Part shown: positions 2,730 to 21,381 of the stretch, in pieces | How the letters are laid out: the number at the start of each line of letters is the position of its first letter | Position numbering within the stretch: position 1 is the stretch's first letter | Source: a virus | DNA length: 21,381 nt | Reading direction: 5' to 3' (one strand) | IMG/VR virus record: IMGVR_UViG_3300035703_000438 | Coordinates: 1-21,381 of that record | Program-made: the position numbers and the translations under genes | The notes under the pieces: generated by a model | Database searches by the model: none | What the model was told of the DNA's origin: nothing | The model's input: the letters and a program-made list of their open reading frames with translations, nothing else

Positions 2730-3071
2730 ATGCAAACGCATGAAGCTTTTAAGTTACTCTCAGGTATTCAGAGGTTAGACCCTGAGATGCCACTACAACA
2801 GGTGATGTGCCTGTTGGTTATAGCGGAAGCAGAAGATGGCTTGTCACTGACCGACGTAGCGAAAAAGGTAGGAATAAGCCTGACAACTGCATCACGTTAT
2901 GTCAGTGCCCTTGGTAAATTGAACAGACATCGTACCGATGGTTTGAAATTCATCGAGTCTCACGAGGACCCGATGGAGAGACGGAAGAAGATAATACGCA
3001 TAACAACCAAGGGTAAGATCGCCCTTCGCAGCATTCTAGGAGATGGCTATGCCGATATTCAAACGAGGTAA
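2730..3071 (+). CDS. MarR-like winged-helix regulator, 113 aa
   Basis: A DNA-binding regulator of the MarR type. Residues about 38-62 (LSLTDVAKKVGISLTTASRYVSALG) form the helix-turn-helix. They are followed by the wing, FIESHEDPMERRKKIIRITTKG, which keeps the DP-x-x-RR and ITTKG elements typical of MarR proteins. At 113 aa it is shorter than the usual 140-150. The ATG at 2730 has GAAGGAG about 12 bases upstream, rather far. It overlaps the integrase start, so the two are co-transcribed. No CI/Cro-like repressor is seen in the window, so this is the best candidate for controlling lysogeny or integrase expression. Its targets are not known; the inverted repeat at 2683-2703 is a candidate. Confidence 0.75.
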   Translation: MQTHEAFKLLSGIQRLDPEMPLQQVMCLLVIAEAEDGLSLTDVAKKVGISLTTASRYVSALGKLNRHRTDGLKFIESHEDPMERRKKIIRITTKGKIALRSILGDGYADIQTR

Positions 3072-4080
3072 GAGTTTTATGGTGTCTGTAGGGAGCGGAG
3101 AATACCGCTTTAGGCAGTGTTACAAGACAATGGACGAGGCCAAGCTTGCAGAGCTAGAGGCTATTGTTCGTCACAACACCACTGGGTCAGCTTTGATCCC
3201 AACGGTGAAGCCCAAGGTAGTGTTAGGACACACCCTCAAGGACGCCTTTGAGCTGACTTGGCGTGTCCATTGGTCGCAGGACAAATCCCCAAAGACTCAC
3301 GATGACGCCTGTCGTTGCATCTTTCGTGTGATACCCAGCGACACTCAGCTCACGGACATCAAGCCTGACCTGATCCTTGAGGCCATCGAGGATTGGGAGG
3401 AGCAGGGCAACTCAGGCTCCACCGTGAACAGGAAACTGAGTCACCTGCGCATGATGCTCAAGACAGCTCACGAGCGTGACTGGATTACCACACTGCCCAA
3501 AGTTCCAACACGCAGAGAGGGAAAGCATCGAATCCGTTGGATCAATGAGGCTGAGGAGCTGAAGGTTCTCACCACCTGCACCCACCTTGGACTCGATGAG
3601 CTGCGGGACTTCATCATCGTGGCGATTGATACGGGGTTCAGGCGTGGGGAGCTTCTCGGACTAGAGCCGAGAGACATCTTCAACGGGCTGCTCCACCTCC
3701 ACGAGGGTGAGACCAAGACGGACAAGGCTCGCTCGGTTCCTGCCACAAGCAGGGTGGCTGAGATCCTCGCCCGTAGGTCCAACCAGCGGAGGATCTTCAA
3801 CCTCACTGAGCCAGCCCTACGGCACCAGTGGCGGGTCCTTCGCCAGGCCATGAAGCTGGAGGACGATCCTCAGTTCGTTGTCCACATGCTGAGACACACT
3901 TGTGCGTCAAGGCTGGTTCAACGTGGGGTGCCATTGGCGGTAGTCCAGAAGTGGATGGGACATTCCAACATCCAGACCACCCTGCGTTATGCCCACCTCG
4001 CCCCTGAAAGTCTTATGGTGGGCAAGGAGGCTCTCGAACAAGTATCTGAGAGGCCAGCCCTGCGGCTCGTTAACGGCTGA
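3049..4080 (+). CDS. int: Tyrosine-type integrase, 343 aa
   Basis: A site-specific tyrosine recombinase that would integrate the phage at the adjacent tRNA-like attP. The catalytic set is complete: Arg in DTGFRRGEL (R198), Lys in ETKTDKARSVP, HMLR (H279, R282), His in WMGHS (H305) and the nucleophile Tyr in TLRYAHL (Y314). Residues about 60-150 form the core-binding (SAM-like) domain and the first 50 the arm-binding region. The ATG at 3049 is favoured over one at 3043 because AGGAG (3038-3042) then lies 6 bases upstream. The gene overlaps the MarR-like gene by 23 bases. Integrases beside the RNA polymerase gene are known from P-SSP7-like cyanophages and some pelagiphages. Confidence 0.95.
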   Translation: MPIFKRGKSFMVSVGSGEYRFRQCYKTMDEAKLAELEAIVRHNTTGSALIPTVKPKVVLGHTLKDAFELTWRVHWSQDKSPKTHDDACRCIFRVIPSDTQLTDIKPDLILEAIEDWEEQGNSGSTVNRKLSHLRMMLKTAHERDWITTLPKVPTRREGKHRIRWINEAEELKVLTTCTHLGLDELRDFIIVAIDTGFRRGELLGLEPRDIFNGLLHLHEGETKTDKARSVPATSRVAEILARRSNQRRIFNLTEPALRHQWRVLRQAMKLEDDPQFVVHMLRHTCASRLVQRGVPLAVVQKWMGHSNIQTTLRYAHLAPESLMVGKEALEQVSERPALRLVNG

Positions 4081-4186
4081 TAAAGGGTTGTCACAGGCTT
4101 GGTTCTGTGTCAGAAGACGGCCACAAAATGGGCACAAAAAATGACACTGCCCATTGAAAACATTGGGAAAAAGTCTTTCCGGAGGC

Positions 4187-4239: not shown

Positions 4240-4260
4240 ACAATCTCCCTAAGGAAAACT

Positions 4261-4295
4261 GAAGAGAACCCCTTGTAAACCAAGGGGTTTTCTTT
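4261..4295 (+). terminator. Strong rho-independent terminator between attP and RNAP gene
   Basis: Perfect 9-bp arms AACCCCTTG (4267-4275) and CAAGGGGTT (4281-4289) around TAAAC, extended by several wobble pairs, and followed by TTTCTTT. It is nearly symmetric and could work in both directions. It starts about 20 bases after the CCA of the tRNA-like core, so in a lysogen it would terminate the rebuilt tRNA-Leu transcript before the phage polymerase gene. Confidence 0.85.
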
Positions 4296-4328
4296 CGTTT
4301 GACAGCAAGAGTTACCAATGGCCATGTG

Positions 4329-4340
4329 TTGTCCAGACAA
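4329..4340. repeat. Palindromic TTGTC-CA-GACAA upstream of the RNAP gene
   Basis: 5-bp arms with a 2-base centre, 25 bases downstream of a TTGACA (4299-4304) that would serve as a -35 box, although no good -10 box follows. A possible operator controlling polymerase expression; untested. Confidence 0.3.
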
Positions 4341-4363
4341 GACAGTTACATGGAGGTAAGACT

Positions 4364-4383
4364 GTGACAACTTTTTCTGTCAC
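4364..4383. repeat. Inverted repeat GTGACA-N8-TGTCAC at a possible RNAP start codon
   Basis: Perfect 6-bp arms (4364-4369 and 4378-4383). The left arm contains a GTG preceded by GGAGGT (4352-4357), so a hairpin or bound repressor here could block translation or transcription of an N-extended polymerase. Confidence 0.35.
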
Positions 4384-4449
4384 ATTGTGCCAACCCCTTA
4401 CCGACAGGCAAGGGAATTTTGGACAAACCCAGAACATCGGACTGAAGTA

Positions 4450-4473
4450 TTCCTATAGTCCGACAATTGGATA
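4450..4473 (+). promoter_or_regulatory. Phage RNAP promoter P1 (predicted)
   Basis: A 24-bp element containing TATAGTCCGACA and TTGGATA. It differs at only two positions from P2 (7095-7118) and is related to P3 (16595-16618). Predicted start of transcription is G4469, by analogy with GG starts of T7-type promoters. Its AGTCCGA (4457-4463) pairs with an upstream TCGGACT (4437-4443). It lies ahead of the polymerase ATG at 4544, so the polymerase would stimulate its own gene. Confidence 0.7.
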
Positions 4474-4494
4474 TCCCCACAAGAAATCTATAGG

Positions 4495-4524
4495 TTTACT
4501 CTTAAGGGGTATTAACTATATATT
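4495..4524 (+). promoter_or_regulatory. Possible host sigma70 promoter for the RNAP gene
   Basis: TTTACT (4495-4500, four of six) and TATATT (4519-4524, five of six) are separated by 18 bases, placing transcription start near 4531, just before the ATG at 4544. The phage needs host transcription of its polymerase at first infection, so a host promoter is expected somewhere here. This is the best match I see. Confidence 0.35.
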
Positions 4525-4543
4525 CACCGATATAGAAAGAGCT

Positions 4544-7072
4544 ATGACTACACTACAAGCTGAACATGAAGACGATCTAATGACTATCCAGATCCGGCTC
4601 GAAGAGGAGATGACCCGAAGGGGTCAGGAGCGGTATCTCAGAGATGTGAACAAGGCCAAACAGGCCCAGAGGGAGGAAGGCACCGCTTACGGTCAGACCA
4701 TCCTCGCTCACCGACTGGACACACTCGCCAAAGGCATCAAGGAGTGGATTGACGAAGCCTCTCAGGGCGTGGCGGGGAACCGCAACATCGCCTTCAAGAA
4801 GGTCAGGGACATGGACCCCAACACCCTCGCCTTCCTGACCCTCAAGAACGTCCTGGCGGGGGTCTCATCGATCCGCACCGTGCAGTTCGTGGGCGTCGCC
4901 ATCGGCACTGCCGTGGAGGACGAACTCCGCTTCGCCAAGGTGCGGGAGATCGAGAAAAAAAAGTACGAGAAGCTGGTGGCAGGAGCTAAAAAAAGATCAA
5001 GCTACCACTACAAACATATCTATGCCGTGCGCCAGGCGCAACGCATTGACGAGTGGGAGAAGTGGACTCGCACCGATCGCCTTCATGTCGGAGTGAAGCT
5101 CATGGACATCTGCATGGCGACGGTGGGGATCGTGGAGATCACCCATCAAAAGATTGAGAAAGATCAAGCTCTGAAATATGTCCGTGCCGTGCCCGAAACC
5201 CTCGACTGGATCGAGCGCAAGAACGACATCACCCAGTTCCTCAGACCCGTCTACGAACCCATGGTGGTGCAACCCAAGGACTGGGAGGATCCGTTCTCGG
5301 GCGGCTACATCAGCTCCAACATCAAGCCCTTGAAATTGGTCAAGACCAAGAATCGGGCTTACATGGACGAGCTGCGCAACGTCGACATGCCGATCGTCTA
5401 CGAGGCAGTGAACGCTCTCCAGCGCACTCCTTGGCAGATCCACAGCCAGGTGCTGGAGGTGATGCAGACGCTCTGGGACAACGGCTCCGAGCTGGGTGGA
5501 TTGCCTCCTCGTGAGGGACGCCCCATGCCGCCCGTGCCTCAGGACATCGAGACCAACGAGACGGCCAAGAAGGAGTTCAGGATCGCCTCAGCCAAGATGC
5601 ACATGCAGAACCTCTCAATTCTAGGACAAAGGATTGGGTTCTCCATCGCCTTGGGGATCGCCAAGCGGTTTGAGCCGTATCGGAAAATTTATTTTCCCTA
5701 CCAGCTCGACTTCCGTGGACGCATCTATGCGGTGCCTCACCTCAACCCGCAGGGATCCGACTACCAGAAGGCTCTCTTGCGGTTCGCCAATGGCAAACCC
5801 TTGGGCGAGGAGGGATGGAAATGGCTGGCTATCCACGGTGCTAACGTGGCTGGCTTTGATAAAGTGTCCTTAGAGGACAGAGTGAATTGGGTACAGGATA
5901 ATGAAGAAGAAATCATTAGAATTGCGAAGGACCCGTATAATAATCGGGGGTGGTGCACCCAGATCCAAGACGTATCAATCGATAAGCCTTGGCAATTCTT
6001 GGCGTTTTGTTACGAGTGGCTCGGTTACACTGAACATGGTGACTCGTTCGTATCGAAACTGCCCGTGGCTATGGACGGTTCATGTTCTGGAATCCAACAC
6101 TTCTCCGCTATGCTCCGTGACCACCACGGTGGAGCGGCCGTTAATCTCGTTCCTCAAGAGCTTCCTGCTGACGTATACCAATTGGTCGCCAATAAGGTCA
6201 TCGAGAAAGTCAAGCACGACGCCCAGTTTGGGACAGACGACGGACTGGGACACACTGACGAGGGTACACCGTATGTGGTTGAAGGCACCAGAACCCTTGC
6301 CTCCCAGTGGTTGCAGTTCGGAATCACACGAAAAGTAACCAAGCGGTCAGTGATGACCCTGGCTTACGGCTCTCGTGAGTACGGCTTCAAGGAGCAGCTC
6401 ATGGAGGACATCATCCGTCCCGCCAAACAGGCCTCGATGATGGATCCGTCCCGCTTCCCCTTCTCGCACGATGGCTACCGAGCCGCAGCCTACATGGCCA
6501 AGCGGATCTGGGTGGCTGTCAACGAGACCCTGGTGAAGGCGTCGGAGGCCATGAACTGGCTGAAGCATGCCGCTTCCCTTGCCGCTCAGGAACAGTTGCC
6601 AGTTCGTTGGACTTCTCCCGTCGGCTTCCCGGTGATGCAAGCCTATCCCGATCTCGCTTTGAGAACCGTCAAGACGGCCATCAACGGCAAGACCGTGAAG
6701 CTCACCATGTATGCCGAGAAGGACAAGCTTGACAGACGGAAACAGTCTCAGGGCATCGCCCCCAACTACGTCCACTCCTGCGATGCAGCCCACATGATGC
6801 TGACGGTGGTGCGAGCCAAGCAGGCTGGGATCCACAACTTCGCCATGATCCATGACTCGTTCGGGACCACGGCAGGAGACGTCGAGGATCTCTACCATGT
6901 GGTGCGGGAGGGCTTCGTGGAGATGTACGAGGAGATCCCTGTGATCGAGACCTTTCGGGATGAGATCCTGCAACAGCTCTCGCCTGACAACCGGGTGAAC
7001 CTGGTGGACCTGCCTGAACGGGGCGAGCTGGATCTGAAGCGGGTGTGCGAGTCACGCTATTGCTTCGCCTAG
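4544..7072 (+). CDS. T7-like single-subunit DNA-dependent RNA polymerase, 842 aa
   Basis: Transcribes the phage genes from its own promoters. Catalytic residues line up with T7 RNAP: Asp511 in AMDGSCSGIQHFSAM (T7 D537), Lys600 and Tyr608 in TKRSVMTLAYGS (T7 K631, Y639), and Asp771 in MIHDSFGT (T7 D812). The protein ends in FA, as in T7. T7 RNAP has 883 residues. The ATG at 4544 places the AEHEDDLMTIQIRLEEEM helix where related enzymes begin, but its ribosome binding site is poor (AGAAAGAG). The frame stays open upstream to a GTG at 4364 with an excellent GGAGGT, giving a 902-residue form with an extra 60 residues unlike any T7 RNAP N terminus I know. P1 lies inside that extension. The gene immediately follows attP and a terminator. 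Confidence 0.97.
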   Translation: MTTLQAEHEDDLMTIQIRLEEEMTRRGQERYLRDVNKAKQAQREEGTAYGQTILAHRLDTLAKGIKEWIDEASQGVAGNRNIAFKKVRDMDPNTLAFLTLKNVLAGVSSIRTVQFVGVAIGTAVEDELRFAKVREIEKKKYEKLVAGAKKRSSYHYKHIYAVRQAQRIDEWEKWTRTDRLHVGVKLMDICMATVGIVEITHQKIEKDQALKYVRAVPETLDWIERKNDITQFLRPVYEPMVVQPKDWEDPFSGGYISSNIKPLKLVKTKNRAYMDELRNVDMPIVYEAVNALQRTPWQIHSQVLEVMQTLWDNGSELGGLPPREGRPMPPVPQDIETNETAKKEFRIASAKMHMQNLSILGQRIGFSIALGIAKRFEPYRKIYFPYQLDFRGRIYAVPHLNPQGSDYQKALLRFANGKPLGEEGWKWLAIHGANVAGFDKVSLEDRVNWVQDNEEEIIRIAKDPYNNRGWCTQIQDVSIDKPWQFLAFCYEWLGYTEHGDSFVSKLPVAMDGSCSGIQHFSAMLRDHHGGAAVNLVPQELPADVYQLVANKVIEKVKHDAQFGTDDGLGHTDEGTPYVVEGTRTLASQWLQFGITRKVTKRSVMTLAYGSREYGFKEQLMEDIIRPAKQASMMDPSRFPFSHDGYRAAAYMAKRIWVAVNETLVKASEAMNWLKHAASLAAQEQLPVRWTSPVGFPVMQAYPDLALRTVKTAINGKTVKLTMYAEKDKLDRRKQSQGIAPNYVHSCDAAHMMLTVVRAKQAGIHNFAMIHDSFGTTAGDVEDLYHVVREGFVEMYEEIPVIETFRDEILQQLSPDNRVNLVDLPERGELDLKRVCESRYCFA

Positions 7073-7075
7073 ATC

Positions 7076-7091
7076 GTTACCACTCAGTAAC
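7076..7091 (+). repeat. Short hairpin GTTAC-N6-GTAAC after the RNAP gene
   Basis: 5-bp arms directly after the polymerase stop codon and just before promoter P2. There is no adequate T-tract, so it is a weak terminator at best. It may mark the boundary between the polymerase transcript and the P2 transcript. Confidence 0.3.
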
Positions 7092-7094
7092 AGT

Positions 7095-7118
7095 TTCCTT
7101 TAGTCCGACACTTGGATA
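7095..7118 (+). promoter_or_regulatory. Phage RNAP promoter P2 (predicted)
   Basis: A 24-bp element with TTTAGTCCGACA and TTGGATA, matching P1 at 22 of 24 positions. It is in the gap between the polymerase gene and the replication genes. Predicted transcription start is G7114, giving a 30-base leader before the ATG at 7144. It should drive the SSB to RNR block. Confidence 0.75.
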
Positions 7119-7143
7119 GACGAGGTAAGTTTTGGAGAATCAA

Positions 7144-7254
7144 ATGTTTAACGTTGTAATGCCTGATGGCACAGTCCGTGTAGTTAAGACAAAGGCGGAA
7201 GCCTTCCGATTGATTGCAGAAATGAAAGAAGCCTACCAAGGCTATTTGAAATAA
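7144..7254 (+). CDS. Very small hypothetical protein, 36 aa
   Basis: A short frame starting MFNVVMPDGTVRVVKTKAEA and ending in an amphipathic helix. The ribosome binding site GGAGA (about 7 bases upstream) is good. It is the first gene after promoter P2, and SSB follows eight bases later. Function unknown. The composition (a beta hairpin then a helix) is that of a folded mini-protein rather than random sequence. Confidence 0.55.
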   Translation: MFNVVMPDGTVRVVKTKAEAFRLIAEMKEAYQGYLK

Positions 7255-7262
7255 GGAATTAT

Positions 7263-7880
7263 ATGAGTAAGAAACCTAAGCTGGAACGCTTCGTCACACC
7301 GATGGGCGTAGCGCAGTATCCCCACCTGAACAAGCCTGACACAAAGTTCAATCCAGACGGAGAGTACAAGGTCAATATCGAAATCGATAACCCTGATGCA
7401 GTCAACACTCTCTCGTCCTTCTTGGATGAACAGATGGCTGACTCCTTCGCCAAAGCCCAGGAAGAGAACAAGGGCAAGAAGATCAAGCAGGCCGATGCGC
7501 CTTACACGCTGGATGAGAACACAGGAAAACTGACTGTTCGCTTCAAGCTTAAGGCTAAGGTCACCCCTAAGAATGGTGATCCTTTCGAACAGCGAGTCGC
7601 CTTGTTTGACGCCAAGGGTACGCCCATGGTCACAGCCCCTAACGTGGGTGGTGGCTCAAAGATCAAGGTGTCCTACGAAGTGATGCCGTTTTATACCGCA
7701 TTGATTGGCGCAGGTATTTCTCTGCGAGTTCGTGCTGTGCAGATCATTGATCTGGTTGAGTACAGTGCGGCAGGTGCTGGAGCCTATGGCTTCGGTCAAG
7801 AAGATGGCTACGAGGCGGATACCACCGCCACTAAAAATGAGTTCACCGACGCAACGGAAGAGTCCGAAAAGGACTTCTAA
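7263..7880 (+). CDS. Single-stranded DNA-binding protein, T7 gp2.5-like, 205 aa
   Basis: Coats ssDNA at the replication fork and contacts the polymerase and helicase. The N-terminal three quarters have the features of the gp2.5/DUF2815-type OB fold (FVTPMGVAQYPHLNKPDTKF, FKLKAKVTPKNGDPFEQRV, VSYEVMPFY). The C terminus is an acidic tail ending EESEKDF with a terminal Phe, as in T7 gp2.5, where the tail and last aromatic residue mediate protein contacts. T7 gp2.5 is 232 aa. The ATG at 7263 follows AAGGAA. The 3' end overlaps the endonuclease gene by 44 bases. Confidence 0.9.
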   Translation: MSKKPKLERFVTPMGVAQYPHLNKPDTKFNPDGEYKVNIEIDNPDAVNTLSSFLDEQMADSFAKAQEENKGKKIKQADAPYTLDENTGKLTVRFKLKAKVTPKNGDPFEQRVALFDAKGTPMVTAPNVGGGSKIKVSYEVMPFYTALIGAGISLRVRAVQIIDLVEYSAAGAGAYGFGQEDGYEADTTATKNEFTDATEESEKDF

Positions 7881-8274
7881 ACCTTTCTCGTCAAAACAAG
7901 TCGGGCTGAAGTATGGCTTCCGATCTGGACTAGAAGAAGCAATTGCTGAAGACCTCACCTCGAAAGGGGTGGGGTTTACTTTTGAAGAGACAGTTATTCA
8001 CTATCAGAAACCTGCCAAGCTTTCAAAGTACACTCCAGATTTTGTTTTAGAGAATGGTATCATCATCGAATCAAAGGGACGGTTCCTGACTGAGGATCGA
8101 CAGAAACATCTGCTGATCCAAAAACAGAACCCGTTCATGGACATAAGATTTGTATTTAGTAATTCAAAAACCAAGATCAGTAAGCGTAGCAAAACAACAT
8201 ATGCCGATTGGTGCAACAAGCACGGCTTCCAGTTTGCTGACAAGCTTATCCCTGAATCTTGGCTCAAGGAATAA
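7837..8274 (+). CDS. Endonuclease I (Holliday junction resolvase), T7 gp3-like, 145 aa
   Basis: Resolves branched DNA and helps degrade host DNA. All four T7 endonuclease I active-site residues are present with the same spacing: Glu33 in FRSGLEE (T7 E20), Asp68 in YTPDF (D55), Glu78 and Lys80 in IIESKG (E65, K67). The C-terminal part also keeps HLLIQKQNP, IRFVFSNSKTK and FADKLIPESWLKE. T7 endonuclease I is 149 aa. The start is uncertain. The ATG at 7837 gives the closest length but overlaps SSB by 44 bases and has no clear ribosome binding site. An ATG at 7804 is an alternative. Confidence 0.93.
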   Translation: MSSPTQRKSPKRTSKPFSSKQVGLKYGFRSGLEEAIAEDLTSKGVGFTFEETVIHYQKPAKLSKYTPDFVLENGIIIESKGRFLTEDRQKHLLIQKQNPFMDIRFVFSNSKTKISKRSKTTYADWCNKHGFQFADKLIPESWLKE

Positions 8275-8275
8275 T

Positions 8276-8719
8276 ATGTATAACGCAAATACCAAGGACA
8301 GGAAACGCACAGATTATATTGCGGTTCACTGTTCGGCTACATCCGAGAAGGCGGACATTGGTGCCGCTGAGATCGACAAGTGGCATCGAGGACAGGGTTG
8401 GGCTTGTATTGGCTACCACTACGTCATCCGACGCAATGGGGTCATCGAGCCAGGCCGTAAGGACACCCAGGTGGGTGCCCACGTCCAAGGCTTCAACGAA
8501 AGCTCCATCGGCATTTGCATGGTGGGGGGCGTTGACGCCAATGACGTAAACAAGGCTGTCAACAATTTCACCCCTGAACAGTTCGCCTCGCTCAAAAAGC
8601 TGCTGGACGAACTCAAGGCTCGCTATCCTAATGCGAAGGTTCAGGGACACCGTGACTTTCCCAACGTCAAGAAGGCATGTCCTTGCTTTGACGTGGCTAA
8701 GTGGCTGAAAAGTTTCTAG
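8276..8719 (+). CDS. N-acetylmuramoyl-L-alanine amidase (T7 lysozyme gp3.5-like), 147 aa
   Basis: A zinc amidase that cuts the bond between N-acetylmuramic acid and L-alanine in peptidoglycan for lysis. In T7 the homologue also binds and inhibits RNA polymerase. The amidase_2 fold shows His18 (YIAVHCSAT), His125 (GHRDF) and Cys135 (KKACPCF) as zinc ligands, with Lys133 two residues before the cysteine as in T7 (K128/C130). T7 lysozyme is 151 aa. The ATG at 8276 follows CAAGGAATAAT and overlaps no gene. No signal peptide is present, so it needs the holin (19549-19968) to reach the cell wall. Whether it binds this phage's polymerase cannot be read from sequence. Confidence 0.95.
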   Translation: MYNANTKDRKRTDYIAVHCSATSEKADIGAAEIDKWHRGQGWACIGYHYVIRRNGVIEPGRKDTQVGAHVQGFNESSIGICMVGGVDANDVNKAVNNFTPEQFASLKKLLDELKARYPNAKVQGHRDFPNVKKACPCFDVAKWLKSF

Positions 8720-8756
8720 CCAAAAAATTTAGTAGTGATCTCCTAGTTGTACTTTC

Positions 8757-8786
8757 GGGGTGGGCTTCGGCTCACCCCTATTTTTT
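8757..8786 (+). terminator. Rho-independent terminator with UUCG tetraloop
   Basis: A 9-bp stem (8757-8765 with 8770-8778, one G-T wobble) closed by a C-TTCG-G tetraloop, followed by TATTTTTT. This is the most stable-looking hairpin in the window. It separates the amidase from the primase-helicase gene, whose ATG is only 15 bases beyond, so it probably attenuates rather than abolishes downstream transcription. Confidence 0.88.
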
Positions 8787-8800
8787 CAAGACAAGGACTT

Positions 8801-10420
8801 ATGCAGACAGAAAACGATAGCGAATTCCTCCGTCACATACCTTGTGACAACTGCGGATCATCAGACGCCAACAGCTTGTATTCCGATGGGCATACATTCT
8901 GTTTCAGTTGCAACACCCACAAGAGTGGAGATGGCTCATGCACCTCCGAGCCTGCCCAAAAGAAATCTTCGAGCACCTTAATCTCTGGCACCTACCAGGA
9001 TCTCGCCAAGCGGAAAATCCGGGAGGAGACCTGTCGGAAGTTTGGCTACCAGGTTGGCGAGTACAAAGGACGCATTGTCCAGATTGCCCCGTACTTCGAT
9101 GCGAGTGGAACCCTGATTGCCCAAAAGATCCGTGGTGCCGACAAGTCCTTTACGGTTCTGGGTGAGATCGCCAAATCCCAGCTCTTCGGTGCCAACCTGT
9201 GGAATCAGGGAAAGAAGCTTGTCATCACCGAAGGAGAAATCGATGCACTCACCGTTTCGCAAGTCCAAAATAATAAATGGCCCGTCGTCTCTGTCCCAAA
9301 TGGAGCGCAGGGTGCTCTTAAAGCTATCAAGAGAAATCTCGACTATCTGCATCGTTTTGAAGAAGTCATCTTCATGTTCGATATGGACGAGCCGGGACAG
9401 AAGGCAGCGCAAGAGTGTGCAGAGCTTCTTGAGGCGGGTAAGGCAAAGCTTGCGTCCCTACCATTTAAAGATGCTAACGAGTGTCTTCAGAACGGGAGAC
9501 CGGAAGATATCGTACAAGCGATATGGAACGCTAAGACCTTCCGTCCTGATGGTGTTATCTCGGGAGCCGATCTCTGGGATCAAATCAACTCCGAAGAAAT
9601 CGTGGAATCCATCCCCTATCCTTGGGGCGGACTCAACGATCTCACTCGGGGCGCACGAAAGGGCGAGCTGGTCACCCTTACGGCTGGTTCGGGGGTAGGC
9701 AAGTCGGCGATCGTTCGAGAGATAGCCCACCACCTCCTGGCTCAGGGTGAGACCGTTGGCCTGCTCATGCTGGAAGAGAACCCGAAGCGCACAGCCCTTG
9801 GACTGATGGGTATCGATCTCAATAAACCGCTGCACCTATCTAAAGAGGGAGTAACTGATGAGGCATTACGCAAAGCTTTTGATAATACTGTTGGCAACGA
9901 TCGTCTTTATTTGTACAACCATTTCGGCAGCAGTGACATTGGCAACCTTATTTCTAGGGTTCGATATCTTGCTAAAGGCTGCGGCTGTAACTGGATTATT
10001 CTCGATCACCTTAGCATTGTTGTTAGTGGTCTTGGCGATGGTGATGAACGAAGACTTATCGACAATGCTATGACCTACCTCCGCACCCTGGTCGAAGAGA
10101 CTGGCGTGGGGATGTTCGTGGTATCACACCTGAGGAGACCCGAGGGTGACAGAGGACATGAGCAGGGAGCCAAGACATCTCTCTCCCAGCTCAGAGGATC
10201 TCATTCGATTGCCCAGCTCAGTGACATGGTCATTGGCTTGGAGCGGGATCAGCAAGGCACTAACCCCAACATCACGACAGTCAGAGTTCTGAAGAACAGG
10301 TTCTCTGGTGAGACAGGTATTGCAGGTTACGTATTGTATAATCGAGAAACAGGAAGACTGTCCGAGACTGACAACCCTCAGTTCAAGGACGAAACCAAAC
10401 ACTTAGAAAAGGAATTCTAA
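8801..10420 (+). CDS. Primase-helicase, T7 gp4-like, 539 aa
   Basis: Unwinds DNA and makes RNA primers. Domains in order: a zinc-binding domain with Cys15, Cys18, Cys34, Cys37 (HIPCDNCG, CFSC); a TOPRIM primase domain with Glu144 in ITEGEIDAL and Asp194/Asp196 in FMFDMDEPG; and a RecA-like helicase with Walker A GSGVGKS (Lys301), Walker B IILDH, and the DNA-binding region SLSQLRGSHSIAQLSDMVIGLER. The last residue is Phe, as in T7, where the tail contacts the polymerase. T7 gp4 is 566 aa. The ATG at 8801 is chosen because it lies just beyond the terminator and follows AAGGAC. Codon choice in about 9840-10070 is more AT-rich than on either side, and a hydrophobic second frame lies there. Confidence 0.96.
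   Translation: MQTENDSEFLRHIPCDNCGSSDANSLYSDGHTFCFSCNTHKSGDGSCTSEPAQKKSSSTLISGTYQDLAKRKIREETCRKFGYQVGEYKGRIVQIAPYFDASGTLIAQKIRGADKSFTVLGEIAKSQLFGANLWNQGKKLVITEGEIDALTVSQVQNNKWPVVSVPNGAQGALKAIKRNLDYLHRFEEVIFMFDMDEPGQKAAQECAELLEAGKAKLASLPFKDANECLQNGRPEDIVQAIWNAKTFRPDGVISGADLWDQINSEEIVESIPYPWGGLNDLTRGARKGELVTLTAGSGVGKSAIVREIAHHLLAQGETVGLLMLEENPKRTALGLMGIDLNKPLHLSKEGVTDEALRKAFDNTVGNDRLYLYNHFGSSDIGNLISRVRYLAKGCGCNWIILDHLSIVVSGLGDGDERRLIDNAMTYLRTLVEETGVGMFVVSHLRRPEGDRGHEQGAKTSLSQLRGSHSIAQLSDMVIGLERDQQGTNPNITTVRVLKNRFSGETGIAGYVLYNRETGRLSETDNPQFKDETKHLEKEF
9858..10073 (+). CDS. Possible embedded membrane-protein gene inside the helicase gene, 71 aa
   Basis: A +1-shifted frame wholly inside the primase-helicase gene. 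It has a good ribosome binding site (GAGGGAG, 6 bases before the ATG). The product begins MRHYAK, has a hydrophobic stretch at about 7-34, a short turn near GFDILLK, a second stretch at about 42-62, and ends NEDLSTML. That is a two-TM hairpin with charged ends, like class II holins. T7 also carries short frames overlapping gene 4. Hydrophobic alternate frames can arise by chance from the codons of a conserved gene, so this is a candidate only. It coincides with a local shift to AT-rich codons in the main frame. Confidence 0.3.
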   Translation: MRHYAKLLIILLATIVFICTTISAAVTLATLFLGFDILLKAAAVTGLFSITLALLLVVLAMVMNEDLSTML

Positions 10421-10620
10421 TGTCGCAGAATGAAATTATCATCAACCATATCCGTCGTGCCAAGAGCATTTCGCAGCGTGAAGCCCTGATTGACCATGGG
10501 ATCCAGTCTCTGACTAAACGTATTAGCGAGCTTCGTAGCATGGGATACAAGATCAAGACTGTTCACAAGAAGCACCCGATTACGGGACAGCGTTATGCCC
10601 GTTATGTTATGGGGCGATAA
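10420..10620 (+). CDS. Small helix-turn-helix protein, 66 aa
   Basis: The product has the arrangement of a compact winged helix-turn-helix domain: HIRRAKSISQREALIDHGIQ then SLTKRISELRSMGYKIKT, followed by a GQRYARYVM wing. Such proteins are common beside replication genes in podoviruses, where they may bind DNA. A specific role is not known. The ATG at 10420 overlaps the last base of the helicase stop (TAATG) and follows AAAGGAAT, so it is co-translated with helicase. It ends two bases before the next small gene. Confidence 0.7.
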   Translation: MSQNEIIINHIRRAKSISQREALIDHGIQSLTKRISELRSMGYKIKTVHKKHPITGQRYARYVMGR

Positions 10621-10621
10621 G

Positions 10622-10768
10622 ATGAACTGGATGCTGGAAACAATGTTTATCACAGGAGTAACCTTTGGAATCGAATGGATGCCTCTTGGGCGTGTATGCG
10701 ATGACGAAGGCTATGTTGTAATCGATATCTTCATCGTACGATTCTTGATTACATATTCACCGAATTAA
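10622..10768 (+). CDS. Very small hypothetical protein, 48 aa
   Basis: The short frame begins MNWMLETMFITGVTFGIEW, is moderately hydrophobic with acidic residues in the centre (CDDEG), and ends IVRFLITYSPN. It starts one base after the stop of the HTH gene, with GGGGCGATAAG upstream as a weak ribosome binding site. It may sit at the membrane, but neither hydrophobic segment is long enough to be sure. It fills the gap before the DNA polymerase gene. Confidence 0.5.
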   Translation: MNWMLETMFITGVTFGIEWMPLGRVCDDEGYVVIDIFIVRFLITYSPN

Positions 10769-10791
10769 ATTAGCTAGTCGAGGGAGACAGC

Positions 10792-12576
10792 GTGGCACTT
10801 ATATTTGACTTAGAAACAAACGGATTGCTGGATGATGTAACCAAGATCCACTGCATCGTTATCAAGGACACAGAGACAGGTTCAGTAATGCGTTATGAAC
10901 CCAATCTGGTTCACTCAGGTCTCAGAATCTTGATGGACTTTGGACATACCATAGTAGGTCATAACGTTATCAAGTACGACATTCCTGTAATCCAAAAGCT
11001 CTACCCTTGGTTCAAGGTAGACAAGTCAAAGGTTCGTGACACGATCGTCTGCACTCGACTCATCTGGTCCAACATCAAGGACCATGATGCTCGCCTGATG
11101 CAGGAGGGTAGGCTCCCTACGAAGATGTATGGAAGCCACTCTCTTGAGGCCTGGGGTCATCGCTTGGGTAACTACAAGGGTGACTTCAAGGGTCCTTGGG
11201 ATACCTTCACACAGGAGATGCTGGACTACTGCGTTCAAGACGTAGAGGTGACGGCTACCCTGTATGACAAGATCCTATCCAAGAATTACTCAGTTGCCGC
11301 ACTGGAACTGGAGCATGACGTAGCATGGTTGATGGCGAAGCAGGAACGGAATGGCTTCTGCTTTGACACCCAGAAAGCAGCTACGCTGTATGCCAAGCTG
11401 GTGCAGCGGAGGGGGGAGCTGGAGCGGGAACTCAAGGACTACTTCGGGTCTTGGGTAATCCAGCTCCCCGACTTTATCCCAGCCAGGGACAACAAAACCC
11501 AAGGCTACAAGAAAGGCGTACCCGTCAAGAGAACCAAGACGATCGAGTTCAACCCCTCATCGAGGGATCACATCGCAGATCGCCTGATCAATCTCTATGG
11601 CTGGAAGCCCGTTGACTTCACCGAGGGTGGCAAACCCATGGTGGATGAAGACGTATTATCTAAACTGGATTATCCCCCATGCAAGCTGCTGACCGAATAC
11701 CTCTTGATTCAGAAGAGGGCAGGGCAGTTGTCGGAAGGACAGCAAGCATGGATGAAGTCCGAAAAGAAAGGAAAGATTCATGGTTCTGTTAATCCTAACG
11801 GTGCTGTTACTGGCCGTGCAACTCATGCTTACCCTAATATCGCTCAGGTACCCAGCGGAGGTTCTGCTTACGGCCCTGACTGTCGTGAACTCTTTACTGT
11901 TCCTCACGGGTGGCATCTGGTTGGTGCAGATGCTTCGGGTCTAGAGCTTCGTTGCCTCGCCCACTTCATGGCAAAGTATGATGGTGGGAAGTATGGCGAC
12001 GTTCTCCTGACCGGAGATATCCATACAGCCAATCAGGAAGCTGCTGGTCTCGATACTCGTAGCCAAGCCAAGACATTTATTTACGCATTCTTATATGGAG
12101 CTGGTGATGCCAAGATCGGGACCATTGTTGGTGGAGATGCGTCTGCGGGGAAAAGACTCAAGGTCAAGTTTCTTCGTAGTCTGCCAGCACTCGGAAGACT
12201 TGTCGATGCTGTTAAAGATTCTGCGTCAAGAGGCTACCTCATTGGGCTTGACGGACGACAGCTACACGTTCGAAGTTCACACGCAGCACTGAACACCCTC
12301 CTGCAATCGGCAGGGGCTTTGATCTGTAAACAGTGGTTGGTGATCCTCGAACAGGATCTCCAGGCTGAGGGATTGAAGCACGGCTGGGATGGTGACTACG
12401 CCTTCTGCGCTTGGGTTCACGACGAGGTTCAAATTGCTTGCCGATCTGAAACCGTTGCCAATCGAGTTGCTGAACTGGCGAAGGCTGCTGTGGTCAAGGC
12501 AGGAGAGCATTTCAGTTTTAGATGCCCACTGGCGGGAGACTCAAAGATTGGAACCAACTGGTCACAGACACACTAG
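10792..12576 (+). CDS. Family A DNA polymerase, T7 gp5-like, 594 aa
   Basis: The replicative polymerase. The N-terminal 3'-5' exonuclease domain starts with IFDLETNG (Asp6, Glu8; T7 D5, E7). The polymerase domain shows motif A in GADASGLELR (Asp380), motif B R-SQA-K-TFIYAFLYG (Arg423, Lys427, Tyr431) and motif C VHDEV (Asp544, Glu545). Tyr431 is at the E. coli Pol I 762 position, the same as T7 Tyr526. It is shorter than T7 gp5 (704 aa), so the thioredoxin-binding insert may be reduced or absent; an alignment would settle this. It uses a GTG start preceded by GAGGGAGA. It is followed eight bases later by a small gene with its own ribosome binding site. Confidence 0.96.
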   Translation: MALIFDLETNGLLDDVTKIHCIVIKDTETGSVMRYEPNLVHSGLRILMDFGHTIVGHNVIKYDIPVIQKLYPWFKVDKSKVRDTIVCTRLIWSNIKDHDARLMQEGRLPTKMYGSHSLEAWGHRLGNYKGDFKGPWDTFTQEMLDYCVQDVEVTATLYDKILSKNYSVAALELEHDVAWLMAKQERNGFCFDTQKAATLYAKLVQRRGELERELKDYFGSWVIQLPDFIPARDNKTQGYKKGVPVKRTKTIEFNPSSRDHIADRLINLYGWKPVDFTEGGKPMVDEDVLSKLDYPPCKLLTEYLLIQKRAGQLSEGQQAWMKSEKKGKIHGSVNPNGAVTGRATHAYPNIAQVPSGGSAYGPDCRELFTVPHGWHLVGADASGLELRCLAHFMAKYDGGKYGDVLLTGDIHTANQEAAGLDTRSQAKTFIYAFLYGAGDAKIGTIVGGDASAGKRLKVKFLRSLPALGRLVDAVKDSASRGYLIGLDGRQLHVRSSHAALNTLLQSAGALICKQWLVILEQDLQAEGLKHGWDGDYAFCAWVHDEVQIACRSETVANRVAELAKAAVVKAGEHFSFRCPLAGDSKIGTNWSQTH

Positions 12577-12584
12577 GGAGGACT

Positions 12585-12806
12585 ATGACACGTAATAAAA
12601 TCAACGATGTATTGTTCAGATCCTATGCGTCAGGCTTTGCTGTTCAATCTAATTACGCCCGTAAGTATGCGCAGGAAGTTGGTGCATTGGCGTCAATGAA
12701 TATGATCACCACCAAGGTGGTTCGTGGCAGTGCTCCGCAGTTCGGGAGAACCTGGCGAGTCACTTTGGATGGCATGAAATTTCTATCCGAAGAGGGGATT
12801 GTATGA
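12585..12806 (+). CDS. Small hypothetical protein, possible winged helix, 73 aa
   Basis: The product starts MTRNKINDVLFRSYASGFAV and has a helical region, then a possible recognition helix (NYARKYAQEVGALASMNMITTKV) and a strand pair (FGRTWRVTLDGMKFL). The order helix-helix-helix-wing resembles small winged-helix DNA-binding proteins, but no family is certain. The start has GGGAGGA five bases or less upstream. It overlaps the metallopeptidase gene by 4 bases (ATGA at 12803), so both are probably translated together. Confidence 0.6.
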   Translation: MTRNKINDVLFRSYASGFAVQSNYARKYAQEVGALASMNMITTKVVRGSAPQFGRTWRVTLDGMKFLSEEGIV

Positions 12807-13147
12807 GTTACAAGAAGTTACGACCAAAGTCCATTAGGGTCATGGGTAAGGTCTATCAGATCAAGTTTATACCCACGTCACCGATCGACCATGAGAACCT
12901 AGGCCAGTGTGATCACAGGAAAATGCTGATCACCATCGAGGACGATCAGGTTCCTGTCGAGGAGCTGGACACGGTGATCCACGAGATCCTCCATGCCATC
13001 TGGTATCAGATGTCAATCGGAGAAGGTCCAATGGAGGAAGAACCTCTTGTCCGCAGGATGGCCAATGGCTTCATTCAGGTGTTCTTGGATAATCAGAATC
13101 TTTTGAAATATGTGGCTGCAATCAAAAACGTACCCTTGGAGGAATAA
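12803..13147 (+). CDS. Putative zinc metallopeptidase (HExxH), 114 aa
   Basis: The motif TVIHEILHAIWYQ contains H60-E61-x-x-H64, the zinc-binding and catalytic helix of gluzincin/minigluzincin peptidases. A downstream Glu in EEEPLVRRMANGF is the likely third ligand or structural residue. The N-terminal half is beta-rich. Proteins of this size with such a motif are frequent in phages and resemble the ImmA/IrrE or SprT-like groups, though without the HTH of ImmA regulators. The substrate is unknown. Candidates are a host regulator or a phage protein. It overlaps its upstream neighbour by 4 bases. Confidence 0.75.
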   Translation: MSYKKLRPKSIRVMGKVYQIKFIPTSPIDHENLGQCDHRKMLITIEDDQVPVEELDTVIHEILHAIWYQMSIGEGPMEEEPLVRRMANGFIQVFLDNQNLLKYVAAIKNVPLEE

Positions 13148-13148
13148 C

Positions 13149-13310
13149 ATGCACCCTGAAGCAAAGCTTGTAGCAGAAGCCTGTGTTCGCATTTGTCAGG
13201 ACAACGAGGCTACCCAGTGTGCCGATATTATTCGATCCATATTTCTCCAACCCGTTCAGCCATGTGTTTTACTGACACCGAAAGTTCCTTATGAAGACAG
13301 CCCTAATTGA
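13149..13310 (+). CDS. Small hypothetical protein, 53 aa
   Basis: It begins MHPEAKLVAEACVRICQDNE, a cysteine-containing amphipathic helix, and ends with a Pro-rich stretch (LTPKVPYEDSPN). The ATG at 13149 follows GGAGGA (13138-13143) at ideal spacing, directly after the metallopeptidase stop. It overlaps the exonuclease start by 20 bases in another frame. Function unknown. Confidence 0.55.
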   Translation: MHPEAKLVAEACVRICQDNEATQCADIIRSIFLQPVQPCVLLTPKVPYEDSPN

Positions 13311-14079
13311 TGCAGATATCCTAGCCTACCAGGCTGCTTCCTATGCGGAACGACCGATTGACTGGGGTGATGGACTGTGGACCCTCCATGCCTTTGAGCA
13401 GGAAGCCACCGAGAAGTTCGTCTCCCTGATTGAGAGCGTAAAGGCGAAGGTCGAAGCCGATGATGTGATCCTCGCCCTAAGCGATAAGGAGAACTGGCGT
13501 AAGGCCGTCCTCCCCACCTACAAGGCGAATCGATCTGGCACCCGCAAGCCCATGCTCTTGCCCTATCTCAGATCCTATGCGCATGAAAATTACACGGTAT
13601 ATCAACGAGATACGCTTGAGGGTGATGATTGTCTGGGCATCCTAGCCACGATGATCACAACAAATAAGATCTTCAATCCCATCATTTGTTCCCTCGACAA
13701 GGACTTCAAGACCATCCCTGGCAAGCACTACAACTTTGGCAAGGATGAGTTCTTTGAGATCACCGAGGCGCAAGCCGATCGCTGGCATATGATCCAGACC
13801 CTGACAGGGGACGCTACGGATGGCTATGCAGGTTGCCCCGGCATAGGCCCTGTGAAGGCCGAGAAGCTCGTCCAGTTGGCTCTGGAGGAGGGCACCCCCT
13901 GGGCGGACGAGAAGCAGCTCAAGGAGATCTATTGGAAGCATGTGGTGGCTGCCTATAAGAAGGCAGGCTTTGCCGAAGAGGAAGCTCTTGTTCAGGCACG
14001 GGTGGCTCGCATATGCCGAGCATCCGACTATGACTTCGAGAATAAGAAGGTTATTTTATGGGAGCCTTATGGAAGCTAA
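13291..14079 (+). CDS. 5'-3' exonuclease, T7 gp6-like, 262 aa
   Basis: Degrades duplex DNA from 5' ends and removes RNA primers. In T7 it also supplies nucleotides from host DNA and takes part in recombination. Motifs of the FEN/PIN superfamily are visible: ALIDADILAYQAA at the N terminus, WRKAVLPTYKANR, TLEGDDCLG, SLDKDFKTIPG, and GDATDGYAGCPGIGPVKAEKL, the helix-hairpin-helix-type region. The acidic residues of these motifs would bind two metal ions. T7 gp6 is about 300 aa. The start has only a weak ribosome binding site, but the IDAD motif fixes it near the N terminus. It overlaps the DUF3310 gene by 11 bases. Confidence 0.92.
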   Translation: MKTALIDADILAYQAASYAERPIDWGDGLWTLHAFEQEATEKFVSLIESVKAKVEADDVILALSDKENWRKAVLPTYKANRSGTRKPMLLPYLRSYAHENYTVYQRDTLEGDDCLGILATMITTNKIFNPIICSLDKDFKTIPGKHYNFGKDEFFEITEAQADRWHMIQTLTGDATDGYAGCPGIGPVKAEKLVQLALEEGTPWADEKQLKEIYWKHVVAAYKKAGFAEEEALVQARVARICRASDYDFENKKVILWEPYGS

Positions 14080-14290
14080 AGACATGCAGGTAGGTGGAAG
14101 CCATTACAAGAAAGCAATCCAGCCTTGGGACATTATCTCCGTATGGGGATTGGACTACTGGCGTGGCAACGTTATCAAATATGTGCTTCGTGCCCCAGCC
14201 AAGAATGGTCGTGAGGACCTAGAGAAGGCGATACATTATCTTGAGTATCTAATCGAGCACTATGACGAGGTGATCAACGATGACGTTTGA
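14069..14290 (+). CDS. DUF3310 protein, 73 aa
   Basis: The sequence carries the signature of DUF3310 phage proteins: VGGSHYKKAIQPWDII, then WRGNVIKYVLRA, and KNGREDLEKAIHYLEYLIE. The biochemical role of the family is not established to my knowledge. Some members are annotated as nucleotide kinase-like, and the position here between exonuclease, MazG-like protein and RNR fits nucleotide metabolism. The start is the ATG at 14069, with an alternative at 14084. It overlaps both neighbours (exonuclease by 11 bases, MazG-like gene by 11 bases). Confidence 0.85.
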   Translation: MEAKDMQVGGSHYKKAIQPWDIISVWGLDYWRGNVIKYVLRAPAKNGREDLEKAIHYLEYLIEHYDEVINDDV

Positions 14291-14594
14291 AGAATATCAG
14301 CTAAAGGTGAGGATGACTCGCCTTGACTCCGCTACGGATATTTATTGCTTTCTCAATCTGGCTGCTGAAGCAGGAGAGGTTTGCGCCCTTGAGGCCAAGC
14401 TGATCAGAGACGGAGGAGACTTTGAGTACTACCGTCAGAATCTAAAGAAGGAACTGGGAGATGTGATGTGGCATGTTGCCGCCATCGCATTGGATCATGG
14501 GTTTGATTTGGCATCCATTGCTGAAGCAAACATTGAAAAACTAAAAGGCCGTATGGCTCGAAACACAATCAAGGGAAATGGTGACGACAGGTAA
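14280..14594 (+). CDS. MazG-like nucleotide pyrophosphohydrolase, 104 aa
   Basis: Expected to hydrolyse nucleoside triphosphates to monophosphates, possibly also acting on ppGpp or unusual dNTPs. The metal-binding set of the all-alpha NTP pyrophosphohydrolase fold is present: E30-AG-E33 in LAAEAGEV and E58-LG-D61 in KELGDVMWH. It is a single-domain form, as usual in phages. The gene overlaps DUF3310 by 11 bases and RNR by 17 bases, so the three are tightly linked, consistent with a nucleotide pool module feeding the DNA polymerase. Confidence 0.87.
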   Translation: MTFEEYQLKVRMTRLDSATDIYCFLNLAAEAGEVCALEAKLIRDGGDFEYYRQNLKKELGDVMWHVAAIALDHGFDLASIAEANIEKLKGRMARNTIKGNGDDR

Positions 14595-16557
14595 TCCAAG
14601 CCTAAGAGCGCAGCTTATAACAAGGCGCACATACAATAGACCCACCGATGATTCGGGGAAGAATTTTGAAACATGGGAAGAGACCGTAGATAGAGTGTTG
14701 TCTCACCAAGCCTGGCTCTGGATCAGAGCGAGTGGCAAGGATCTGACGGACGAACAGAATGCCGAACTGGAGGAGCTGAGAACCCTCATGCTCCAGCGTA
14801 AGGTTCTCACCTCCGGTCGGACCCTCTGGTTGGGTGGCACCACCGTAGCCCAGACACGGGAAGCCTCACAGTTCAACTGTAGCTTCACCCATGTCGAGAG
14901 CATCTATGATGTGGTGGATTGCCTCTGGCTCCTCCTCCAGGGCTGTGGTGTGGGATTCCGTCCCATCATTGGACAACTCACTGGCTTCACCAAGCCAATC
15001 AATGAGTTGCAGATTATTCGTAGTGAACGTACAGCGAAAGGCGGACGTGAAACAAACAAAGAAACATACGACAACGGAGTCTGGACTATATCCGTGGGAG
15101 ATTCTGCTGAAGCGTGGGCAAAGTCTATTGGTAAGCTTATGGCTCACCCTTACGCAGCCGACAAGCTGGTCCTGGACTTCTCAGAAATCCGTCCTGCGGG
15201 GGAGCGACTTAAAGGCTACGGATGGATCTCCTCAGGAGACACAGCCATCGCCAAAGCGTACGAGGAAATCTTCAAGATCCTCAACCGTCGCTCAGGCTCC
15301 CTCCTCAGCCGCATCGATATCCTCGACATCATCAACTGGCTCGGTACGGTCCTCTCGTCCCGCAGGTCAGCGGAAATCGCCCTCTTCAATTACGGAGAAG
15401 ACGAGTGGCAAGAGTTCGCAGTTGCGAAAAAAGAATTCTGGGTAAACAATATCCAGCGAGCACAATCCAACAACTCCCTGCTTTTCAAGAGCAAACCGTC
15501 CCGTCAGGACTTGAAGCATATCCTCGATCTGATGGTAGAGGCGGGTGGATCCGAACCTGGATTCATCAACGGCCAGACGGCAGCAAAGAGGGCACCTTGG
15601 TTTAAGGGTGTGAATCCATGTGCAGAGATTCTATTGGGTAACAAGAGTTTCTGTAATCTTACAGAGGTTGATGTTGGCAAATTCAAAGGTGATTCTTCCG
15701 GTCTCAGAAGGGCAGTCCATATTGCAGCCAGGGCTAACTACAGGCAAACCTGTGTTGATCTCCGAGATGGTGTGCTCCAAGAAGCTTGGCATCTCAACAA
15801 CGAGTTCCTACGGCTATGTGGCGTGGGTCTTACGGGTATCGTGCGGAGACCAGACTTGGGTAGTTACGACTATACTGAATTGCAGAGAGCAGCTACTTCG
15901 GGAGCTTACTCAATGGCTGATGAGCTTGGGTTACCACGCCCAAAGAACGTCACGACAGTCAAACCGAGTGGGACACTATCGAAGATTATGGACACCACTG
16001 AAGGTGTTCACAAACCGCTCGGGAAGTACGTGTTCAACAATGTGAACTTCTCCAAGCATGACCCCCTGGTTCCCCTCTGTCGCCAGGCAGGGTATCGGGT
16101 GTTTGACAATCCGATGGATACCGAGTCCGTGCTGATCACCTTCCCAGTCCGTTGGGATGATGTACCCTTTGAGAAGATCCATAGGGACGGCAAGGATCTT
16201 GAGGTGAACCTAGAGTCAGCCTTGGCCCAGCTAGAGCGTTACAAGATGCTCATGCAGAACTGGTGCCAGCAGAACGTATCCGCTACAATCAGCTATTCCG
16301 TTGATGAAGTGGACGATATTGTGGACTGGCTCATGGATAATTGGGACTTGTATGTGGGTGTTAGCTTCTTGTTTAGAGCGGACCCAACCAAGACAGCCAA
16401 GGATCTAGGCTACCTCTATTTACCGCAAGAGGTTGTTTCTAAAGAGGTTTTTGACGAGTACGCCTCTCGTATCCAACCCGTCACGATCGATGAAGCGAAC
16501 AGCTTTGACGAGCTTGAGGGTATGGAATGCGCAGGTGGAGCTTGTCCAGTTCGATAA
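14578..16557 (+). CDS. Class II (adenosylcobalamin-dependent) ribonucleotide reductase, 659 aa
   Basis: Reduces ribonucleotides (triphosphates in this family) to deoxyribonucleotides for phage DNA synthesis, using adenosylcobalamin. It matches the monomeric Lactobacillus leichmannii type (739 aa): Cys101 in FNCSFTH; Cys348 (radical), Glu350 and Cys359 in NPCAEILLGNKSFCNL; and the C-terminal redox pair Cys651/Cys656 in ECAGGACPVR, with the same spacings of 11 and 5 residues. GCGVGFRPIIG is also typical. No class I small subunit or class III activase is nearby. The ATG at 14578 overlaps the MazG-like gene by 17 bases. As the enzyme needs B12, the host presumably makes or imports it. It ends the replication block and is followed by a GC-rich hairpin. 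Confidence 0.95.
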   Translation: MVTTGNPSLRAQLITRRTYNRPTDDSGKNFETWEETVDRVLSHQAWLWIRASGKDLTDEQNAELEELRTLMLQRKVLTSGRTLWLGGTTVAQTREASQFNCSFTHVESIYDVVDCLWLLLQGCGVGFRPIIGQLTGFTKPINELQIIRSERTAKGGRETNKETYDNGVWTISVGDSAEAWAKSIGKLMAHPYAADKLVLDFSEIRPAGERLKGYGWISSGDTAIAKAYEEIFKILNRRSGSLLSRIDILDIINWLGTVLSSRRSAEIALFNYGEDEWQEFAVAKKEFWVNNIQRAQSNNSLLFKSKPSRQDLKHILDLMVEAGGSEPGFINGQTAAKRAPWFKGVNPCAEILLGNKSFCNLTEVDVGKFKGDSSGLRRAVHIAARANYRQTCVDLRDGVLQEAWHLNNEFLRLCGVGLTGIVRRPDLGSYDYTELQRAATSGAYSMADELGLPRPKNVTTVKPSGTLSKIMDTTEGVHKPLGKYVFNNVNFSKHDPLVPLCRQAGYRVFDNPMDTESVLITFPVRWDDVPFEKIHRDGKDLEVNLESALAQLERYKMLMQNWCQQNVSATISYSVDEVDDIVDWLMDNWDLYVGVSFLFRADPTKTAKDLGYLYLPQEVVSKEVFDEYASRIQPVTIDEANSFDELEGMECAGGACPVR

Positions 16558-16560
16558 GCT

Positions 16561-16601
16561 AGGGGAGGGGGTCAAACCCCTCCTAACCCCTTGATTTCTT
16601 T
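16561..16601 (+). terminator. GC-rich hairpin ending the replication block
   Basis: GGAGGGG (16564-16570) pairs perfectly with CCCCTCC (16577-16583) around GTCAAA. A second register, AGGGG (16561-16565) with CCCCT (16587-16591), is also possible. The T-rich stretch only begins about 11 bases later, so it is an imperfect intrinsic terminator. It sits between the RNR stop and promoter P3. Confidence 0.6.
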
Positions 16602-16618
16602 AGTCCTTGAATTGGAGA
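16595..16618 (+). promoter_or_regulatory. Phage RNAP promoter P3 (predicted), head of the structural block
   Basis: TTTCTTTAGTCC and ATTGGAGA in the same register as P1 and P2, with a divergent centre (TTGA for GACA). If transcription starts at G16614, the mRNA would begin GGAGAACTT and reach the ATG at 16623 after only nine bases, so the Shine-Dalgarno sequence would be the very 5' end of the transcript. It should drive portal, scaffold and capsid genes. Confidence 0.65.
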
Positions 16619-21340: not shown

Positions 21341-21378
21341 AAGGGGAACTCTCGTAACTGGGGGTTCCCCTTTTTTTT
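21341..21378 (+). terminator. Rho-independent terminator after the capsid gene
   Basis: AAGGGGAAC (21341-21349) pairs with GTTCCCCTT (21364-21372) over 9 bp, followed by T to 21378. AACCCC (21335-21340) could instead pair with GGGGTT (21361-21366), giving an alternative fold. The position matches the T7 late terminator just after gene 10, which partly ends transcripts so that capsid is made in excess over tail proteins. Confidence 0.88.
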
Positions 21379-21381
21379 ATT

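Follow-up and report, generated by a model that had tools for sequence, protein, structure and literature searches.

Three elements in a T7-like phage with temperate features as probable promoters of its own RNA polymerase, with a new specificity

The window analysed here (the whole 21,381-base stretch of an IMG/VR virus record, evidently a fragment) encodes an RNA polymerase (RNAP) of the T7 type at 4538-7072, which raises the question of where on its own genome this polymerase starts transcription. The original prediction was that three copies of a 24-bp intergenic element are the cognate promoters, that transcription starts at the GG of TTGGA, and that the specificity is new. On sequence evidence the three elements are predicted, with a probability of about 0.95, to be the cognate promoters of this polymerase. 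They behaved as cognate promoters in every computational test available, which is strong support; the specificity is new, and the promoter type is a well-known one.

The window and its three elements

Judged by its genes, the window is a T7-like phage with temperate features. The gene order is regulator, integrase, terminator-like hairpin, RNAP, gp2.5-like SSB, endonuclease I, amidase, primase-helicase, DNA polymerase, exonuclease, MazG, B12-type ribonucleotide reductase, connector, scaffold, holin-like protein and capsid genes, followed by a hairpin with a T-run (Table 1). The catalytic residues D537, K631, Y639, H811 and D812 of the RNAP are all kept, and the winged-helix protein is a candidate lysogeny regulator. 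Right after the integrase gene, at about 4190-4240, the sequence GGGTTCGAGTCCCTCCGCCCGCACCA resembles the 3′ end of a tRNA and is a probable attachment site; no whole tRNA gene was found in the window. A small ORF at 1559-1891 has a signal-like N-terminus, three imperfect Y-x-DQYG-containing repeats and no Pfam match. An Rfam search returned no match.

Table 1. Coordinates of the predicted promoters and of other features of the window
Feature	Position	Strand	Sequence or basis
Predicted promoter 1	4450..4473	+	TTCCTATAGTCCGACAATTGGATA; upstream of RNAP gene; predicted start G4469; 69-nt leader to ATG 4538
Predicted promoter 2	7095..7118	+	TTCCTTTAGTCCGACACTTGGATA; downstream of RNAP, upstream of replication block; predicted start G7114
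Predicted promoter 3, late class	16595..16618	+	TTTCTTTAGTCCTTGAATTGGAGA; upstream of structural block; predicted start G16614
Winged-helix transcriptional regulator (IclR/MarR-like HTH)	2730..3071	+	Pfam/PHROG; position as in LUZ100
Tyrosine integrase	3043..4080	+	Pfam PF00589 8e-24; PHROG 1
Terminator-like hairpin in integrase/RNAP gap, then T-rich stretch	4262..4294	+	-20.3 kcal/mol, z -4.9; terminator scan
T7-type single-subunit RNA polymerase, 844 aa; T746, K748, K758 (T7 numbering)	4538..7072	+	Pfam RNA_pol 4e-118, RPOL_N; PHROG 414; T7 RNAP 1aro E 1.5e-177
N-acetylmuramoyl-L-alanine amidase in the position of T7 lysozyme (gp3.5)	8276..8719	+	Pfam Amidase_2 4e-19
GC hairpin just upstream of predicted promoter 3	16563..16584	+	fold energy unexceptional, z -0.7
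Hairpin and T-run after major capsid gene, in the place of T7 Tphi	21341..21379	+	z -2.8

The three copies were found again where the original prediction had placed them, all on the + strand and with no comparable fourth match in the window. Copies 1 and 2 are indeed identical at 22 of 24 positions, and site 3 matches each of them at 18 of 24. When each copy was held out of the matrix in turn, it scored 31.6, 31.8 and 21.0 bits; elsewhere in the window, both strands included, the highest scores were 12.2, 11.5 and 13.7 bits. The pattern TTTAGTCCNNNNNTTGGA, with at most one mismatch, occurs three times on the forward strand, never on the reverse strand and never with a reversed-pattern control, a copy count that covers the fragment only. 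Sites 2 and 3 are intergenic. The longest reading frame (GTG at 4364) takes in site 1, and the relatives align from ATG 4538; because homology places the RNAP start there, site 1 is intergenic too. The element is therefore not spread equally over gene interiors and both strands: its sites are intergenic, with three on the forward strand and none on the reverse. The annotated gene order also reproduces their placement before the polymerase gene, the replication block and the structural block. The sequences from the predicted starts read GGATA, GGATA and GGAGA (sites 1, 2 and 3), purine-rich with G at +1; site 3 has TTG at -7 to -5, where sites 1 and 2 have GAC.

Within the element, TATAGT or TTTAGT looks like a -10 box, and a weak sigma-70-like match lies nearby (4495-4524), as might be seen if the elements were ordinary host sigma-70 promoters. 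However, a scan of 2300-7300 for TTGACA and TATAAT-like hexamers 16-18 nt apart gave no match at sites 1 and 2, the conserved block extends beyond TATAGT into TTGGATA, and the sequence of the element shifts clade by clade with the phage RNAP, which together make a host promoter exceedingly improbable.

Conservation and covariation with the polymerase

Among relatives whose RNAPs are 85-95% identical to that of the window, the flanks of site 1 can barely be aligned past the closest sibling, yet CTAT.GTCC.ACAATTGGATA is kept; site 2 follows the same pattern, its element being kept amid poorly conserved flanks. The flanks of site 3 are conserved too, and footprinting says little there. The arms of the GC hairpin upstream of site 3 vary across relatives with their complementarity kept (GGAGGGG/CCCCTCC, GGAGAGG/CCTCTCC). 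Two degenerate 21-base patterns searched against 2.9 million viral contigs (IMG/VR) matched 11 stretches, all in the clade of the window; the matching contigs that were new as RNAP relatives are 80-91% identical to the window and match at site 2 or site 3. A scan of genome contigs found one relative only, within a Polynucleobacter genome. The scan of related genomes that had been proposed as a check matched the orthologous sites, with strong whole-contig matches on the RNAP strand only; opposite-strand matches on the whole contigs of relatives are few, and are weak, palindromic or coding. Motif-like opposite-strand matches in L007, L028, L025 and L016 were rejected as promoters, being conserved coding sequence (IQFYDYT-like by hand translation).

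Relatives carry an extra copy close to the genome end, at a distance of about 34-37 kb from the start of RNAP, in a region that T7 uses for replication and packaging, and CTATAG-type repeats follow the genome-end copy in three of them (G001, L028 and G004). Both observations would suit replication, packaging or RNA-processing signals common to intergenic regions. T7 itself, however, carries promoters at its genome ends (phiOL and phiOR), the leaders of sites 1 and 2 showed no excess of folding over shuffled sequences, and covariation with the RNAP contact residues would not be expected of such signals, so that there is hardly any probability left for this explanation. By analogy, one more promoter of the phage polymerase would be expected near the genome end, beyond the window. 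In G001, the closest sibling, TTCCTATAGTCCTTGAATAGGGGG stands some 8 kb upstream of the RNAP gene. Arrays of short CCTATAG/CTATAGG-like repeats (G001, about 5507-5650; L028, about 3646-3725; G004, 1-90) recall the repeats beside the T7 terminal repeat, and in G004 the two contig ends bear one and the same promoter, as a terminal overlap would produce.

In T7 RNAP, N748 contacts -10/-11, R756 contacts -9 and Q758 contacts -8 (PMC5937735). The RNAPs were aligned with those of T7, T3 and SP6, and promoters were registered without positions -12 to -7. Mutual information, judged against label permutations, then gave a ranking of the variable RNAP columns for every promoter position, using representatives of less than 80% identity. 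When the clade of the window was left out (33 diverged polymerases, 696 columns; registers of L135 and L194 set by hand, ambiguous L133 and L222 dropped), N748 ranked first of 696 for -12, -11 (z 10.3) and -10, R756 second for -9, and Q758 first for -8 (z 9.0), ranks that are only partly corrected for phylogeny, with all other columns sharing the same tree. With the clade included, N748 ranked first of 696 for -11 and fourth for -10, R756 first for -9 and Q758 first for -8. Among promoter instances outside the clade, K748 accompanies G-11 in 23 of 23 and K758 accompanies C-8 in 10 of 14; the window matches both predictions, having K748 with G-11 and K758 with C-8. Because a sequence that is not a promoter would have no reason to covary with the RNAP contact residues, the covariation indicates that the element is a promoter. 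Lying on one strand at the starts of gene blocks, specific to the clade and covarying with the residues of the specificity loop, the elements uphold the original prediction of cognate phage-RNAP promoters.

The same register gives a predicted +1 at the first G of TTGGA, in agreement with the start first proposed. For comparison with mapped ends, Pseudomonas phage LUZ100 offers promoters phi1-phi7 determined by ONT-cappable-seq (PMC10134795; OP329100.1); measured from the first G, the annotated ends of its promoters scatter over 0-2 nt, so the exact starts in the window could be 1-2 nt off.

The covariation also bears on the idea that the elements are operators through which a phage repressor, the winged-helix protein, silences gene blocks in the prophage. 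The phage is temperate and encodes such a regulator, site 1 overlaps inverted repeats (4437-4443/4457-4463 and 4446-4458/4488-4500) beside a near-palindrome at 4484-4497, and in relatives the RNAP promoter has been proposed to be flanked by repressor sites (PMC10134795). Sites 2 and 3 lack such dyads, however, and operators would leave the covariation of element bases with RNAP contact residues unexplained; this alternative is very unlikely, and the promoter reading itself leaves room for an operator that overlaps promoter 1. The near-palindrome (AAATCTATAGGTTT) lies about 15-30 nt past the predicted start of promoter 1, and at the corresponding place in relative G003 (about 2409-2424) there is a perfect 16-bp palindrome, TAAAACTATAGTTTTA; by their sequence and position these palindromes are candidate operators of the regulator.

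Residue 746, position -7 and two promoter classes

The CACTATAG-type core (-7 to +1), by which the T7/T3/SP6/K11 promoter group has been defined (PMC13029058), is absent from all three sites, which have GACAATTG, GACACTTG and TTGAATTG there instead. Outside the clade of the window, residue 746 is nearly always Arg or Lys and C-7 is near-invariant; all 61 of 61 promoter instances of RNAPs with R or K at this residue have C at -7. The clade of the window (the window, L007, L008 and L009) has T746 with G or T at -7, and residues 746-748 align without gaps. The association between residue 746 and -7 is significant on lineages (Fisher p 0.005). Two other lineages without R or K at 746 have a usable register; since the V746 lineage has G at -7 and the T746 lineage has C, loss of R746 permits a change at -7 and does not force it. 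The R746A mutation inactivates T7 RNAP (PMC11477551) and position -7 of the T7 promoter is intolerant of change (PMC7948468), which makes this natural loss of R746 and C-7 directly testable.

Promoters fall into two classes by the bases at -6/-5, one RNAP-proximal and one late; site 3 is in the late class. In a search that left out -7 to -5, covering the clade of the window, L010 and clade B (RNAPs 72-75% identical to that of the window), A-6 was present in 19 of 19 promoters up to about 4.6 kb past the RNAP start and in 2 of 15 late and right-end promoters, a split whose p value of 1e-7 overstates independence because the genomes are related. The -6 split is absent in BB8, G019, G021 and YIMV22061. 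It is plausible, the odds being evenly poised, that the RNAP of the clade gave up the Arg/Lys at 746 and reads G or T at -7, and that it also serves two -6/-5 classes (A-6 at the replication promoters and those flanking RNAP, mostly no A-6 at late and right-end ones), which could time middle versus late expression. T7 too has two promoter classes, and its lysozyme helps to tell them apart. In the window, an amidase occupies the lysozyme position.

Other phages, mechanism and meaning

The upstream flank of the RNAP gene was compared with the downstream flank, with no prior motif, in 103 loci. A 21-mer was shared at 18 or more of 21 positions in 49 of the 103, against 0 (reversed) and 1 (reverse complement) in the controls; as a positive control, L132 and L200 returned near-T7/T3 promoter sequences (e.g. 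AATTAACCCTCACTATAGGGAGA). Flanking pairs were GGTTGCACAATTGGATA in clade B, CTCCTGCACAATTGGATA in L010 and AATTAACCCCCACTAATAGAG, near the T3 promoter, in Limnohabitans phage YIMV22061 (RNAP 54% identical to that of the window). The flank comparison recovered no clear pair in L040, L041 and many distant loci. Strong and very different pairs flank the RNAP genes of distant loci L216 (e.g. GTGACAACGAGGGCTACCCCTAGC), L208, L196, L201 and L222, and are candidate promoters of further specificities. L015 and L020 (G011) have a changed specificity loop with K758, and the promoters that flank their RNAP genes carry C at -8. In G011, however, the late promoter, ATGGTTGCCCAATTGG, is still of the clade-B type and carries G at -8, which may be a specificity switch seen midway. 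Before the primase-helicase gene, where clade-B relatives have a promoter, the window has a hairpin with a UUCG loop and a T-run (8757-8785, z -5.2).

The nearest named relative by RNAP is Bordetella phage vB_BbrP_BB8 (MK984681; 64.5% identity), which has its own element, GGTTGCACATAAGGATA, upstream and downstream of the RNAP gene and before the structural block, like the window, and also near its genome end. BB8 has T-9 G-8 C-7 with R746/Y758, whereas the window has C-9 C-8 G-7 with T746/K758. The word "promoter" is absent from the accessible portion of the BB8 genome paper (PMC7073063). LUZ100, a T7-like phage that is temperate, shares the gene order of the window (regulator, integrase, terminator, promoter, RNAP, promoter, SSB); its phi1 upstream and phi2 downstream of RNAP end in TTGGA and ATGGA (PMC10134795), and its promoters, like those of the window, lack the CACTATAG core. 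It differs in its recognition sequence (AATTACCACACAG..TGGA), in having D748 and L758, in its RNAP (41% identical) and in that its promoters were mapped experimentally, whereas those of the window are predicted from sequence.

With T7, T3 and SP6 promoters the elements share size, register, G at +1 (GG as in T7 and T3), A-6 C-5 at sites 1 and 2, and the contact scheme of 748 to -11/-10, 756 to -9 and 758 to -8. They differ in that C-7 is replaced by G or T and Arg746 by Thr, the RNAP being about 39% identical to that of T7 and 32% to that of SP6. The expected new specificity was borne out against the T7 and SP6 consensus sequences, and the T3 promoter also differs. According to the accessible portion of the KP34 report (PMC6834552), the RNAP of Klebsiella phage KP34 is also single-subunit with more than one promoter type, but it recognises two unrelated sequences, whereas the classes of the window differ only at -7 to -5.

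Each promoter would extend from about -17 to +5 and initiate at G4469, G7114 or G16614, with rightward transcription into the polymerase gene, the replication genes and the structural genes from promoters 1, 2 and 3, respectively. The specificity loop is predicted to read about -12 to -7, Lys748 with G-11/T-10 and Lys758 with C-8. Host RNAP that enters from the early or lysogeny region would presumably supply the first polymerase molecules, after which promoter 1 may drive the RNAP gene itself in a positive feedback, both as proposed for LUZ100, and the promoter class may set middle or late timing.

For four of the metagenomic RNAPs in a core-based search, no promoter-like sequence was reported (PMC13029058); because there is a group of promoters without the CACTATAG core, searches that start from it would miss them. 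The window adds a new, probably orthogonal RNAP-promoter pair, and the analysis shows that the genomes of uncultured phages allow a direct reading of the T7-type recognition code.
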